Below, piece by piece: positions 28,762 through 63,477 of a stretch of 63,477 nt of DNA. The notes beneath the pieces were generated by a model. That model was not told the DNA's origin. It was given only the letters and a program-made list of their open reading frames with translations, and did no database searches. The stretch is taken from NCBI GenBank assembly GCA_031296305.1, contig JARLFZ010000009.1:1-63477 (forward strand). The letters are read 5' to 3'. The stretch comes from Occallatibacter sp. (lineage in GTDB: Bacteria; Acidobacteriota; Terriglobia; Terriglobales; Acidobacteriaceae). Made by a program: the position numbers and the translations under genes. How positions within the stretch are numbered: position 1 is the first letter of the stretch; every line of letters begins with the position of its first letter.

Positions 28762-29071
28762 TGCGCTCAAAGTAGGTTCCTTTTCTGTCCAATCGGGACT
28801 GGGGGATGCCAAGGCTACGCCAATGGCCTTAGCCCAAAAATAACAAAAACTATGCCAGGCGCGGCAATCGCGTGCGCCGCAATGATCCTGCGGCCGAAAT
28901 CCAGACGGAGTTTTGTTTCGTTTCGCCCGGATCGGCCGTCTCCCACATTCTACGGCAAAGCGCAGGCTCCTGCGCCCCTCCGCGACGCCTGAGTGTTGCC
29001 TTCCGAGTTGCCTGGAGTCACTTCTTCACTTTGGCGCACGCGAAATGAAGGGCAGGCTCTAATCTGAGCGT
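28762..29071. other. Divergent intergenic region, bactofilin/rnr
   Basis: No gene is seen in these 310 bp. It must hold the two divergent promoters. A -10-like TCTAAT at 29058-29063 lies 8 nt before the rnr ATG, again a leaderless arrangement. Confidence 0.4.
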
Positions 29072-49426: not shown

Positions 49427-49457
49427 CCCCCGGTCTCCAAAAGCGAGAGACCGGGGG
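49427..49457. repeat. Palindromic intergenic repeat, CCGGTCTC type
   Basis: A perfect 11-bp stem, CCCCCGGTCTC / GAGACCGGGGG, with the 9-nt loop CAAAAGCGA, followed by GCACC. Two related copies are at 60217 and 60304, and a shorter one lies inside rnr at 31119. Confidence 0.75.
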
Positions 49458-49669
49458 CACCCTCAGCGTGGATTTGGAGCGTCGAGACCGGGGCACCGTC
49501 GGCGTAGTTTTGGCGCGTCGAGAGCGAGGGCGCCCCGCCGTCCCTTCAAGAAAACCCTTCCGCTTTCCGGCTCGCGCAGTGTAGCCTTAGGCCCGGTCCA
49601 TTTGGCCCACGCGGAGCTTTACGGGCCAAACCATCTCAACCAACAAACATTCCCCGAGGAGGAGAAATC

Positions 49670-60155: not shown

Positions 60156-60216
60156 GTCGATCAGTCGGCCGGGCTATTCTGCGTTGGATCTAGCCTTGGG
60201 GCTGTTGCTGGGATAT

Positions 60217-60390
60217 CCCCGGTCCCCAAATGCGAGGGACCGGGGGCACCGTCCGCACAAGGGGACCGGAAGACATCCCTCAGCGGCTAAAGCCCCGCGA
60301 CTTCCCCGGTCCCCAAATGCGAGGGACCGGGGGCACCGTCCGTCCAAGGGGACTGGAAGACATCCCTCAGCGGCTAAAGCCCCGCGACTT
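60217..60390. repeat. Two tandem 87-bp units containing the CCGGTCCC palindrome
   Basis: Unit 1 is 60217-60303 and unit 2 is 60304-60390, with only a few differences. Each begins with a perfect 10-bp hairpin, CCCCGGTCCC / GGGACCGGGG, with the loop CAAATGCGA. Then follow GCACCGTCCG, GACATCCCTCAGCGGC and TAAAGCCCCGCGACTT. As 87 is a multiple of 3, a frame stays open through it, but it is not coding. Confidence 0.85.
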
Positions 60391-61896: not shown

Positions 61897-62140
61897 TGCG
61901 ATTTTTGATTGCACCGCGGTCGATGCAAAACGCTGCCGCTGCCGCAGGAAGAATCTGCTTGGTGGAGATTTGTTTGGGTTTTTTGCGGGCTGATTGCTGG
62001 TCAAATCGGATCGTTGATCGAGCAAATTCCGTGATTGACGCTGAAAAGTCGCGACAATGCACCAAGGTTGGTGAAATCCACAAATTTACTTGATTTTTGC
62101 ACTTGCTTCCACAGATTGAACGGACGTAATGTCTCTTCAA

Positions 62141-63054
62141 CTGATGACCCGTTAGGGTATCGGAGTTGGTTGCCGGAAGGCTGGAAGAAAAGACAGCCGG
62201 CGCAAGCCGGAAGTTGATCGCCAGCAAGGTTGACGGAGTGGACAGCCGGTGAGAACCGGAGGATGGCCGTTAGCCCGGACAGAGGGTGAAACCTGAGGCG
62301 CAAGCCGCAGAGGGATCGCTGGACGCACCAGAGGTTACAAGTGAGGGCGCAAGCCCACGGTTGTTCAACTGGAAAGATTCCGGAAGATGCAAGGGCCGGT
62401 GGAAACGGAATACTCATCGACGGCTTCGCCGGCGATGCAAGGTTCGGTTGAAACAAGGAGTGCATCAGAGGCTCAGCCGGAGAAGGAGCCACGAGGCGCA
62501 AGCCGAGAGGTTCACGGCCGGTGAAGACGGAGGGTGAAGCAGCCGGTGCAAACTGGAGGCGGAGCCAGCCGGAGGGCAGGGGCAGCATAAGGCGCAAGCC
62601 GAATGAAGCCGCCAGCCGAGCCAAAGGACGGCGTCCGATGCGAATCGGAGATAGGTCGTCGGCCTAGCCGGAGGAAGGCTCTGTTCGGCGCAAGCTGGAT
62701 GGTGCCAGGATTGTTGGGCGCAAGCCCGATGAAACCAGGATCGTCAAGCGCAAGCTTGATGGATCGCCGAAGGTCGAACGGAAGAGCGGAACAGCCGATG
62801 CGAGTCGGAGGTTTGCAGCCGGTCGAGCCGAAGACACGAAACCGATCCGAGCCGGAAGGTTGGCCACCGGTCGAGCTGGAGTGCAGGGCACTGACGCAAG
62901 TCGGAGTTCTGAAAGCCAGCGCAGCCAGAGGTAGCGGCGCCAGCGAAAGCTGGAGGGCGGCCACTGGGGTAGCCGGAGGATGCAGCACCGACTGTACTGC
63001 GAGTGATCAAGATTGAAACGCCAGAGGCTTCGGTCTCTGGCGTTTTCAATTTTT
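62141..63054 (+). ncRNA. Candidate large structured RNA: ~49-nt-periodic GNRA hairpin array
   Basis: Small hairpins recur at 62147, 62197, 62246, 62297, 62345, 62396, 62448, 62495, 62543, 62591, 62635, 62684, 62714, 62744, 62795, 62842, 62891 and 62940. Most spacings are 44-52 nt. At least 14 have 3-6 paired bases closed by a GNRA tetraloop, for example CCGGC-GCAA-GCCGG, CCGGT-GAGA-ACCGG, CCGAT-GCGA-ATCGG, TCAAGC-GCAA-GCTTGA and CCAGC-GAAA-GCTGG. Stems differ in sequence but keep pairing, which argues for selection on structure. GGA-rich purine linkers separate them. A strong terminator ends the array. The period is not a multiple of three and no coding frame covers it. I know of no matching RNA family. 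The 5' end is not determined. Confidence 0.7.
63016..63054 (+). terminator. Intrinsic terminator with UUCG loop, end of the hairpin array
   Basis: AAACGCCAGAGGC-TTCG-GTCTCTGGCGTTT, a 13-bp stem with one G-U pair closed by a C(UUCG)G tetraloop. It is followed by TCAATTTTT. This is one of the strongest intrinsic terminators in the window. Confidence 0.9.
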
Positions 63055-63103
63055 GGGGACTTTTTTCGCGTGAGCCGGAGTTTCTTCCGTTCTGCGAACT
63101 TCG

Positions 63104-63157
63104 CTAACACCGCTAACTCCGCCAACGCCACTAACACCGCTAACTCCGCTGACACCA
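63104..63157. repeat. Six 9-bp tandem repeats
   Basis: CTAACACCG, CTAACTCCG, CCAACGCCA, CTAACACCG, CTAACTCCG and CTGACACCA. An 18-bp pair is exactly duplicated (repeats 1-2 equal 4-5). It lies between the array terminator and the rhodanese-like gene. Confidence 0.8.
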
Positions 63158-63197
63158 CTTGCTTTTCCCGGCAGTACACTGGATGCGGAGAATCCTT

Positions 63198-63477
63198 ATG
63201 CGATTGGGTTGGAGTGAAAGGGCAGGCGTCTTCGCCGCTCTCATGTTGTTGTGTTTTGCTGCGGGCGGGATGCGCGCCGCGGGCCAGTGGGCTGCGCCGT
63301 CGCCCTCGAGCGCGTCGTCTATTCCAACCTCAATGCTGCTTCAGCCGGAAGAGCTGAACCGGCTGCTGCAAACTCCGACTGCGGAAAAGCCGCTGGTTTT
63401 GCAGGTGGGCTCGCGGGTGTTGTTTGACCAGGCGCACATCCCGAAGTCTGAGTTCGCCGGGCCGGGCTCGCAGGATG
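63198..63477 (+). CDS. Exported rhodanese-like protein, 5' part
   Basis: The frame is open from ATG 63198 to the window end (93 codons). A signal peptide (RAGVFAALMLLCFAAGGMRA) is followed by the start of a rhodanese-like domain (LLQPEELNRLLQTPTAEKPL, VLQVGSRVLFDQAHIPKSEF). The active-site Cys loop is outside the window. GCGGAG lies about 7 nt before the ATG. It is transcribed in the same direction as the hairpin array but separated from it by the terminator. Confidence 0.75.
   Translation, partial: MRLGWSERAGVFAALMLLCFAAGGMRAAGQWAAPSPSSASSIPTSMLLQPEELNRLLQTPTAEKPLVLQVGSRVLFDQAHIPKSEFAGPGSQD

Follow-up and report, generated by a model that had tools for sequence, protein, structure and literature searches.

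Near the end of the window (the whole 63,477-nt stretch of Occallatibacter DNA analyzed here), a sequence-only reading had picked out about 17 GNRA-capped hairpins repeated roughly every 49 nt and had proposed that they form a new, large noncoding RNA. The locus raises the question of whether this array is an RNA gene at all and, if so, what such an RNA would do in its host.

RESULTS

The array in the window

We found 17 GNRA hairpins of at least 3 bp in window positions 62139 to 63054 (dinucleotide shuffles: mean, 2.65; maximum [max], 9), in agreement with the number first reported. The accompanying figure of at least 14 perfect stems was slightly high: with G-U pairs allowed, 13 hairpins have at least 4 bp (mean, 0.97; max, 5 in 300 dinucleotide shuffles), and 10 have at least 5 bp (mean, 0.30; max, 2 in 300 dinucleotide shuffles). 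On the minus strand of 62101 to 63060, no GNRA hairpin with at least 4 bp was found. Two of the 17 hairpins (62505 and 62854) are out of phase and may have arisen by chance. The ~49-nt period was recovered as well, with loops mostly 49 nt apart and some irregular stretches or gaps; two 30-nt steps (62690-62720-62750) interrupt the spacing. The 957-nt array stretch folds at z = -8.4 (20 shuffles), and purines make up 63% of the array plus strand versus 48% of the window overall.

The array of ~49-nt units extends from 62172 to 62986 on the plus strand, and hairpin scans and unit alignments divide each unit into a GNRA-capped hairpin (A) and a conserved purine-rich element (B). Hairpin scans placed A hairpins CCGGC-GCAA-GCCGG at 62197 to 62210 and TCCGAT-GCGA-ATCGGA at 62634 to 62649, both on the plus strand like those that follow. 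Scans together with ortholog alignment identified CCGGT-GCAA-ACTGG (62543 to 62556; helix 6), CCGAT-GCGA-GTCGG (62795 to 62808; helix 13), CTGAC-GCAA-GTCGG (62891 to 62904; helices 14 and 15), and CCAGC-GAAA-GCTGG (62940 to 62953; helices 16 and 17). GC/AU changes among orthologs mark CCGGT-GAGA-ACCGG (62246 to 62259; helix 1), where they are compensatory, and GGGC-GCAA-GCCC (62345 to 62356; helix 4). An internal landmark, ATACTCATCGACGGC..GGCGATGCAAGGTTCGG (62409 to 62447, plus strand), consists of near-invariant columns in the ten-ortholog alignment. The same kind of alignment indicates that the three plus-strand A hairpins at 30-nt steps (62681 to 62762) represent two extra 30-nt copies; among nine aligned orthologs, L021 has one extra copy and the other eight have zero.

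Distribution of the array

In a plain DNA search, 17 of 60 related genomes contained matches to the array. Sixteen relatives were fetched, and 15 of them had 7 to 16 GNRA hairpins (at least 4 bp) in their best 900 nt on the array strand, the exception being L033 with one; the opposite strand had 0 to 5. We then used two models, R1 for the 49-nt unit (76 units) and R2 for the upstream block plus the RNA start (30 rows). R1 matched 47 of 80 genus genomes at an E value of ≤1e-3, and among 250 family genomes it matched 14 at ≤1e-4, namely 12 within the genus and 2 in genus g22. R2 matched 66 of the 80 genus genomes, including 35 of the 42 good ones, with one copy in 61 of the matching genomes and two in 5. 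One of the 66 (G010) is counted only via the tRNA-type cassette described below. G030 is without an R2 match, and its array, which R1 does match, begins at the contig end. In genomes without an R1 match (G250 and G371), a degenerate array lies between the block and the terminator. Where two array-gene blocks occur in one genome, they may stand in tandem ~0.87 kb apart (G034, L104) or ~3.4 kb apart (G470, L129, and G014, L130).

An exact-pattern scan of named genomes returned 34 stretches, 32 of them titled Acidobacteriota, including Occallatibacter savannae AB23 (contig NZ_QFFY01000002.1, locus L163) and two Terracidiphilus MAGs; the other two (Clostridia and "Ca. Taylorbacteria") score only 13 to 17 bits with R2. 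Terracidiphilus gabretensis has been moved to Occallatibacter (PMC12935467). The exact 17-base core occurred, among 399 class genomes, in 8 of 14 genus members and in one genome elsewhere (G146, 7.4 bits with R2). Homologs were found in two genera only. In g22, the gene has a short form of about 270 nt with a few units (L174/L076 in G616 and L175/L079 in G605), a similar promoter, and a terminator of the same kind. No array match that might indicate a viral or plasmid origin was found in 50,697 phage or 72,556 plasmid records. The array is a gene family present in most genomes of the genus, usually in one copy, and its promoter-like, array, and terminator-like sequences are conserved together.

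Predicted promoter block, RNA start, and terminator

The earlier start of 62141 was set too late, as a conserved promoter/operator block begins at 62058. The block opens with an operator-like inverted repeat, TGCACCA-N4-TGGTGA followed by AATCCACA (62058 to 62082, plus strand; pattern scan and alignment). Even with up to 3 mismatches allowed, the scan finds it only once in the window, where chance would give 0. It is kept in most of 30 aligned loci and absent as such in L045 and L067. Next comes a conserved core, TTTGCACTTGCTTCCACAG (62096 to 62114, plus strand; alignments), whose exact copy is unique in its own genome; one 2-mismatch copy lies on another contig. Across six genomes searched at ≤2 mismatches, the core occurred only at the array gene, except for one two-mismatch site in G000. 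The core is invariant in the 30-row alignment because rows were selected for exact TTTGCACTTGCWTYCACA, and R2 was made from these rows.

We compared promoters by anchoring copies on CACA(G/A), which is present in 65 of 66 copies (L031 is without the anchor). The predicted -35 element is TTGCTT (62103 to 62108, plus strand), in which TTG and the final T recur in all 65 anchored copies, a count partly favored by a copy-finding model built from rows chosen for the -35 stretch. The predicted -10 element, less favored in this way, is TAATGT (62127 to 62132, plus strand); its A2 and T6 are kept in 65 of 65 copies, and it takes the general form (T/C)ANNNT, with a first base of T in 45 and C in 20 and variable inner positions. 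The spacer between the -35-like TTGNNT and the -10-like element is 18 bp in every anchored copy. We take TTGNNT, 18 bp, and (T/C)ANNNT to be the pattern of a housekeeping-type bacterial promoter. A strict promoter consensus scan of the window region found none; thus, the promoter claim rests on comparison among copies. The predicted transcription start is 62139 on the plus strand, 7 nt past the -10 element and placed to within 2 nt, where the base is A in 30 of 30 rows of the gapped alignment and in 31 of 65 copies counted ungapped from the anchor.

Upstream of the array gene, ATCCACA is followed 31 bp later by another site of the form (A/T)T(C/T)CACA, this one overlapping the -35 element, and the inverted repeat and repeated CACA-type sites are probable regulator sites. 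An IMG/VR viral contig, 3300036790_000802 (L170:12939-13009 and L204:1216-1286), has the whole operator/promoter block. The sequence downstream of the block differs there from the array and folds no better than shuffles (z = -0.1); by eye, it resembles a short reading frame for a membrane protein, ribosome site included. Since the viral contig has the block ahead of unrelated sequence, the block is supported as a DNA element rather than an RNA element. A phage gene may thus come under the same regulator as the array RNA.

The conserved 5' sequence of the RNA (62141 to 62163, plus strand; 30 loci) contains a predicted hairpin, CUGAUGACCC-GUUA-GGGUAUCGG, which showed no covariation support in these loci (84.1% of cells pair versus 84.0% in shuffles). 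At the other end, the UUCG-capped terminator noted earlier reappears as a predicted intrinsic terminator of 14 pairs on the plus strand (63015 to 63046) with a T-rich tail to ~63055. A GCC(A/G)G-type terminator was picked by script in 57 of 66 copies.

Coding potential, strand, and neighbors

Protein coding was considered and rejected, as 133 of 147 pairwise gaps against nine orthologs are not multiples of 3. Long stop-free frames do run along the minus strand (207 amino acids in the window), as would be expected if the array were a DNA-level repeat or a spurious antisense ORF and not an RNA gene; however, a purine-rich plus strand would by itself keep minus-strand frames open. GNRA hairpins of at least 4 bp number 500 on the plus strand and 5 on the minus strand of 58 loci. 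The folding surplus is also larger on the plus strand, the gaps break the frame, and a conserved terminator-like hairpin lies on the plus strand, all of which makes the DNA-repeat or antisense-ORF explanation very improbable. With promoter-like and terminator-like ends, frame-breaking gaps, and structure under selection, window positions 62139 to 63054 likely constitute a noncoding RNA gene that stands on its own, flanked by a predicted promoter and a predicted terminator.

In the window, the array is preceded by an abhydrolase gene and followed by a frame that clusters with a rhodanese-like protein in four loci (Pfam match just under the cutoff). Neighbors at other loci include redoxin, cytochrome c, isochorismatase, and TyrRS, and a protein resembling an MFS transporter lies downstream of the array in eight loci. 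The ten neighbors scanned further comprised RDD, a DUF7385 match below the cutoff, and two without a match. That flanking genes differ among loci suggests that the array RNA, if transcribed as we infer, likely acts in trans.

Other repeats lie elsewhere in the window. At 60216 to 60390, ahead of the abhydrolase gene, an 87-nt unit occurs twice in tandem (96% matches), together with an inverted repeat, GGTCCC..GGGACC. Just downstream of the array terminator, about six copies of a 9-nt repeat, CGCTAACAC, span 63097 to 63159 and can also be read as 18- and 27-nt units. A 36-nt tandem repeat (2.4 copies) is found at 49447 to 49535. The unit model gave one weak single match on the minus strand at 28969 to 29021 (18.5 bits; E value, 0.021), possibly by chance or from a lone unit.

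Structure and covariation

Comparisons of units, of 629 hairpins, and of ten orthologs all upheld the earlier statement that stem sequences vary while pairing is kept. In the 629 hairpins (58 loci), pairing past the three selected pairs exceeded column shuffles at positions 4 to 12, with weaker pairing at positions 6 and 7, where purine-purine oppositions are frequent; arms paired below shuffles at position 13 and above them at position 14. Over positions 4 to 11, 57% of cells pair in register, versus 24 to 38% when the arms are slid. The 76 R1 units, picked from 139, were all required to have at least 3 bp adjoining the loop; evidence free of this selection comes only from the outer pairs and from the ortholog alignment.

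Ten orthologs were aligned by sequence alone, with pair lists from RNAalifold on the same alignment sorted by the analyst into A and other pairs. Changes on both sides occurred in 29 of 81 A-hairpin pairs (15.2 in shuffles and 2 to 6 when slid). Double-change cells numbered 72 in A pairs (25.1 in shuffles and ≤8 when slid), a value reached by 0 of 500 shuffles; related sequences are not independent, and the shuffles leave shared ancestry in. These results strongly support a GNRA-capped hairpin whose stem has a purine-rich point inside it and a further helix outward of that point. Related genomes do carry homologous arrays with compensatory stem changes, the pattern that the sequence-only reading had said to look for.

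Folding was examined in 15 of the 58 RNAs (12 shuffles each). Plus-strand z scores ranged from -1.6 to -20.3 and were below the minus-strand scores in all 15. The weak folders were L133 (z = -1.6) and L127, in which the minus strand was equal by raw energy. The unit HMM gave 0 or 1 match in 10 of the 58 array RNAs. With few units in some RNAs and weak folding in others, the hairpin module is evidently not equally kept everywhere.

Element B, with the consensus GCCGGC-nnn-GCC-RRARGR-NGCAA, is conserved in sequence. A second hairpin within it (CCGGC-nnn-GCCGG) was rejected: pairing over 76 units was 70.0% versus 69.5% in shuffles (175 of 500), and double-change cells numbered 19 versus 15.2 (73 of 500). 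The proposed pairing did beat slid versions (20 to 41%), as consensus-derived structures tend to do. A grid search between successive A hairpins found no clear B helix. In the ortholog fold, 70 of the 143 non-A pairs were counted, the other 73 (terminator, long-range, and others) being left out. Double changes were seen in 5 of these 70, a number reached by 54 of 500 shuffles, with a slight excess in cells (10 versus 4.9) and score (0.159 versus 0.142), reached by 1 of 500 shuffles each. Because B pairing is no better than in shuffles, we treat B as a sequence element. Within each unit, then, one half (A) keeps shape and the other (B) keeps sequence.

A shape-keeping hairpin beside an element that keeps its sequence without clear covariation is what a loop and its receptor would look like. 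This fits an architectural RNA, the main rival to the explanation we prefer, in which GNRA loops dock into helices of neighboring units or molecules to give an RNA-only particle or filament; a candidate receptor would be, for example, the conserved CCGG-containing B element. One tight receptor would favor a single loop type, but the loops of the 629 hairpins are mixed (GCAA, 285; GAAA, 113; GCGA, 97; GGAA, 53), and no receptor motif was identified in the array. The RNA also varies about twofold in length, which a fixed cage would hardly allow. There is precedent in GOLLD, ROOL, and OLE, large bacterial RNAs that form RNA-only complexes as described in PMC12286853. On balance, we regard the architectural explanation as unlikely.

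Array length and unit number

We kept 58 of the 66 copies as the RNA set, no family-type terminator having been picked by script in the rest (L030, L109, L112, L125, L129, L129b, L130, and L130b); L030 does show such a terminator in alignment. The terminator found for L104b belongs to the next copy, so that this locus was cut at a set length and excluded from the length test, which left the period the same. For the resulting 57 loci, the distance from predicted start to terminator ranged from 517 to 1157 nt. The best period of these lengths in a scan from 20 to 120 nt was 49.5 nt (R = 0.51), a strength matched anywhere in the scan by 0 of 2,000 uniform random-length sets. In 34 less similar representatives, the best period was again 49.5 nt (R = 0.43). 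Nearest spacings between hairpins of at least 4 bp (58 loci) were most often 49 nt (122 of 443), followed by 50 (58), 48 (49), and 51 (31). Blocks gained or lost among aligned orthologs measure ~47, 62, and 60 nt. The 60-nt block consists of two 30-nt copies, and thus not each event was exactly one unit. Together, the length period and the block gains and losses indicate that the array expands and contracts in approximately unit-sized steps.

Regular units behind their own predicted promoter and terminator might also be expected of a precursor cut into many unit-length small RNAs that act separately. The stems differ between units, however, so that no shared seed region is evident, and we consider such a precursor improbable.

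Cassettes with a similar start

A second kind of locus with an R2 match was found in G447, G017, and G010 (L171, L172:2695-2885, and L173). In the three cassettes read, a promoter and a terminator similar to those of the array gene surround ~75 nt that are the reverse complement of a degenerate tRNA, and the predicted cassette transcript is antisense to a degenerate tRNA-like gene. By DNA search, near full-length relatives of the cassette were also present in G446 (C265) and G469 (C272), for 5 of 80 genomes; in most of the other 66 genomes matching the cassette, the match covers just the tRNA part or some portion of the array block. In G446, the tRNA-type cassette and the array are on one strand, with the cassette ~2 kb upstream. 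The first ~25 nt of the cassette resemble the array RNA start: CAGTTGGTGACCC..GGGATTGG in the cassette (L172) is nearly equal to CAGTTGGTGACCC..GGGAATTGG in the array RNA (L032), and this holds in several species. The array gene may have arisen from a tRNA-type cassette or may have captured cassette ends.

Comparison with known RNAs

A search of the window against Rfam 15 gave no covariance-model match to the array and only a tRNA elsewhere. In six relatives, the same database returned only a TPP riboswitch elsewhere and nothing on the array, and for positions 61900 to 63200 it returned only one match, with an E value of 4.5, on the minus strand. Acido-1 (RF01686) and Acido-Lenti-1 (RF01687), noncoding RNAs from Acidobacteria according to PMC2864571, had no match in the window or the six relatives at Rfam cutoffs and none in 61900 to 63200 at E values up to 5. 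A literature search with most subscription journals outside its coverage, including parts of PMC2864571 and PMC12286853, returned no description of the array RNA. Hairpin covariation, folding, and the lack of an Rfam family covering the array all support the earlier view of a large structured RNA. We consider the array RNA to be a large, lineage-specific structured RNA that may be sponge- or scaffold-like.

GOLLD, ROOL, and OLE are likewise long, structured, and bacterial, with functions that are obscure or partly known, whereas the array RNA is built of modular tandem units in variable number and has no Rfam match. In GOLLD, as PMC12286853 describes it, the 3' part is conserved and the 5' part less so, and the RNA is often encoded near tRNA islands.

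CRISPR arrays share hairpins at regular spacing, but the repeats of the array RNA are not near-identical, and its stems covary with compensatory changes. Type III toxin-antitoxin RNAs (ToxI and its kin) have ~35- to 50-nt tandem repeats with their own promoter and terminator. The array RNA resembles them in both respects but has more units, with stems that diverge between units. No toxin-like gene was found downstream or nearby among ten neighbors scanned, and the neighbors are not conserved.

CsrB, CsrC, and RsmZ are free-standing RNAs in which many short hairpins present repeated sites, and the array RNA is similar in these features. In contrast, its loops are GNRA rather than GGA, its units are 49 nt long, and the whole RNA is longer than they are, with no CsrA match in the genus. 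The sequence-only reading had likened the array to CsrA/RsmA-binding RNAs on the basis of roughly three dozen GGA triplets. The count was accurate (39 GGA in the window RNA), and over 58 loci GGA is mildly enriched (1,854 versus 1,594 in shuffles), which, with the many hairpins, would suit a CsrA/RsmA sponge like CsrB and RsmZ. However, A(N)GGA is not enriched in the same loci (772 versus 829 in shuffles), and 495 of the 629 loops are GCAA, GAAA, or GCGA, without GGA. CsrA (PF02599) itself had no match in any of the 80 genus genomes, of which 42 are good, and none in the genome that carries the window (84% complete); as a control, the search matched in 3 of 14 known genomes. The comparison therefore fails, and because none of the 80 genomes match, a CsrA sponge is refuted unless an unrecognized CsrA-like protein exists. 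We consider it scarcely credible.

Hfq, on the other hand, matched in 79 of the 80 genus genomes. A genome often had three matches to this family, of which one was canonical and the others divergent. A CrcZ-like Hfq sponge would have its protein partner at hand, but the expected motifs are depleted in the RNAs of 58 loci: (ARN)3 was seen 80 times versus 218.6 in shuffles, AAN3 4 times versus 14.7, and UUUU ahead of the terminator 14 times versus 55.5, with no (ARN)4 in the window. Divergent Hfq-like proteins may have other site preferences. Even so, we give an Hfq sponge only a slight chance.

DISCUSSION

The array is conserved, its stems covary, and its length changes unit by unit. A free RNA with many shape-kept modules, tolerance of length change, and a promoter that appears to be regulated is most readily understood as a multivalent binder. 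We tentatively favor, at somewhat less than even confidence, an RNA gene whose ~15 GNRA modules would bind many copies of one partner and so titrate or gather it. The partner would most likely be an RNA-binding protein that reads the hairpin shape and perhaps the adjoining purine-rich element. According to this model, a DNA-binding regulator at the conserved operator-like sites would set the level of the array RNA, each unit would offer one binding site, and unit number would tune binding capacity. We count in favor of multivalent binding the tolerance of copy number, from array forms of 517 to 1157 nt to the ~270-nt form in g22; a role as structural filler would likewise accommodate a varying number of units. 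Transcription of the RNA, its multivalent binding, and its action in trans are read here from comparative sequence evidence.

It is also possible, if doubtful, that the array RNA is a self-assembling or partner-condensing bacterial RNA polymer in which A hairpins alternate with receptor-like B elements. Its length would then change by whole 49-nt units, having grown from a ~270-nt ancestor like the g22 form. Such a polymer, if real, would be a bacterial counterpart of repeat-built architectural RNAs.

Large bacterial RNAs of unassigned role are few, and those with solved structures have proved to be unexpected RNA machines. The pairing of a shape-keeping with a sequence-keeping element provides a concrete search image for a partner of the array RNA. 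Moreover, dozens of related species form a natural length series of about 10 to 24 unit lengths. Because this series is modular and at least one cultured host has the array gene, the dependence of function on valency is directly testable.
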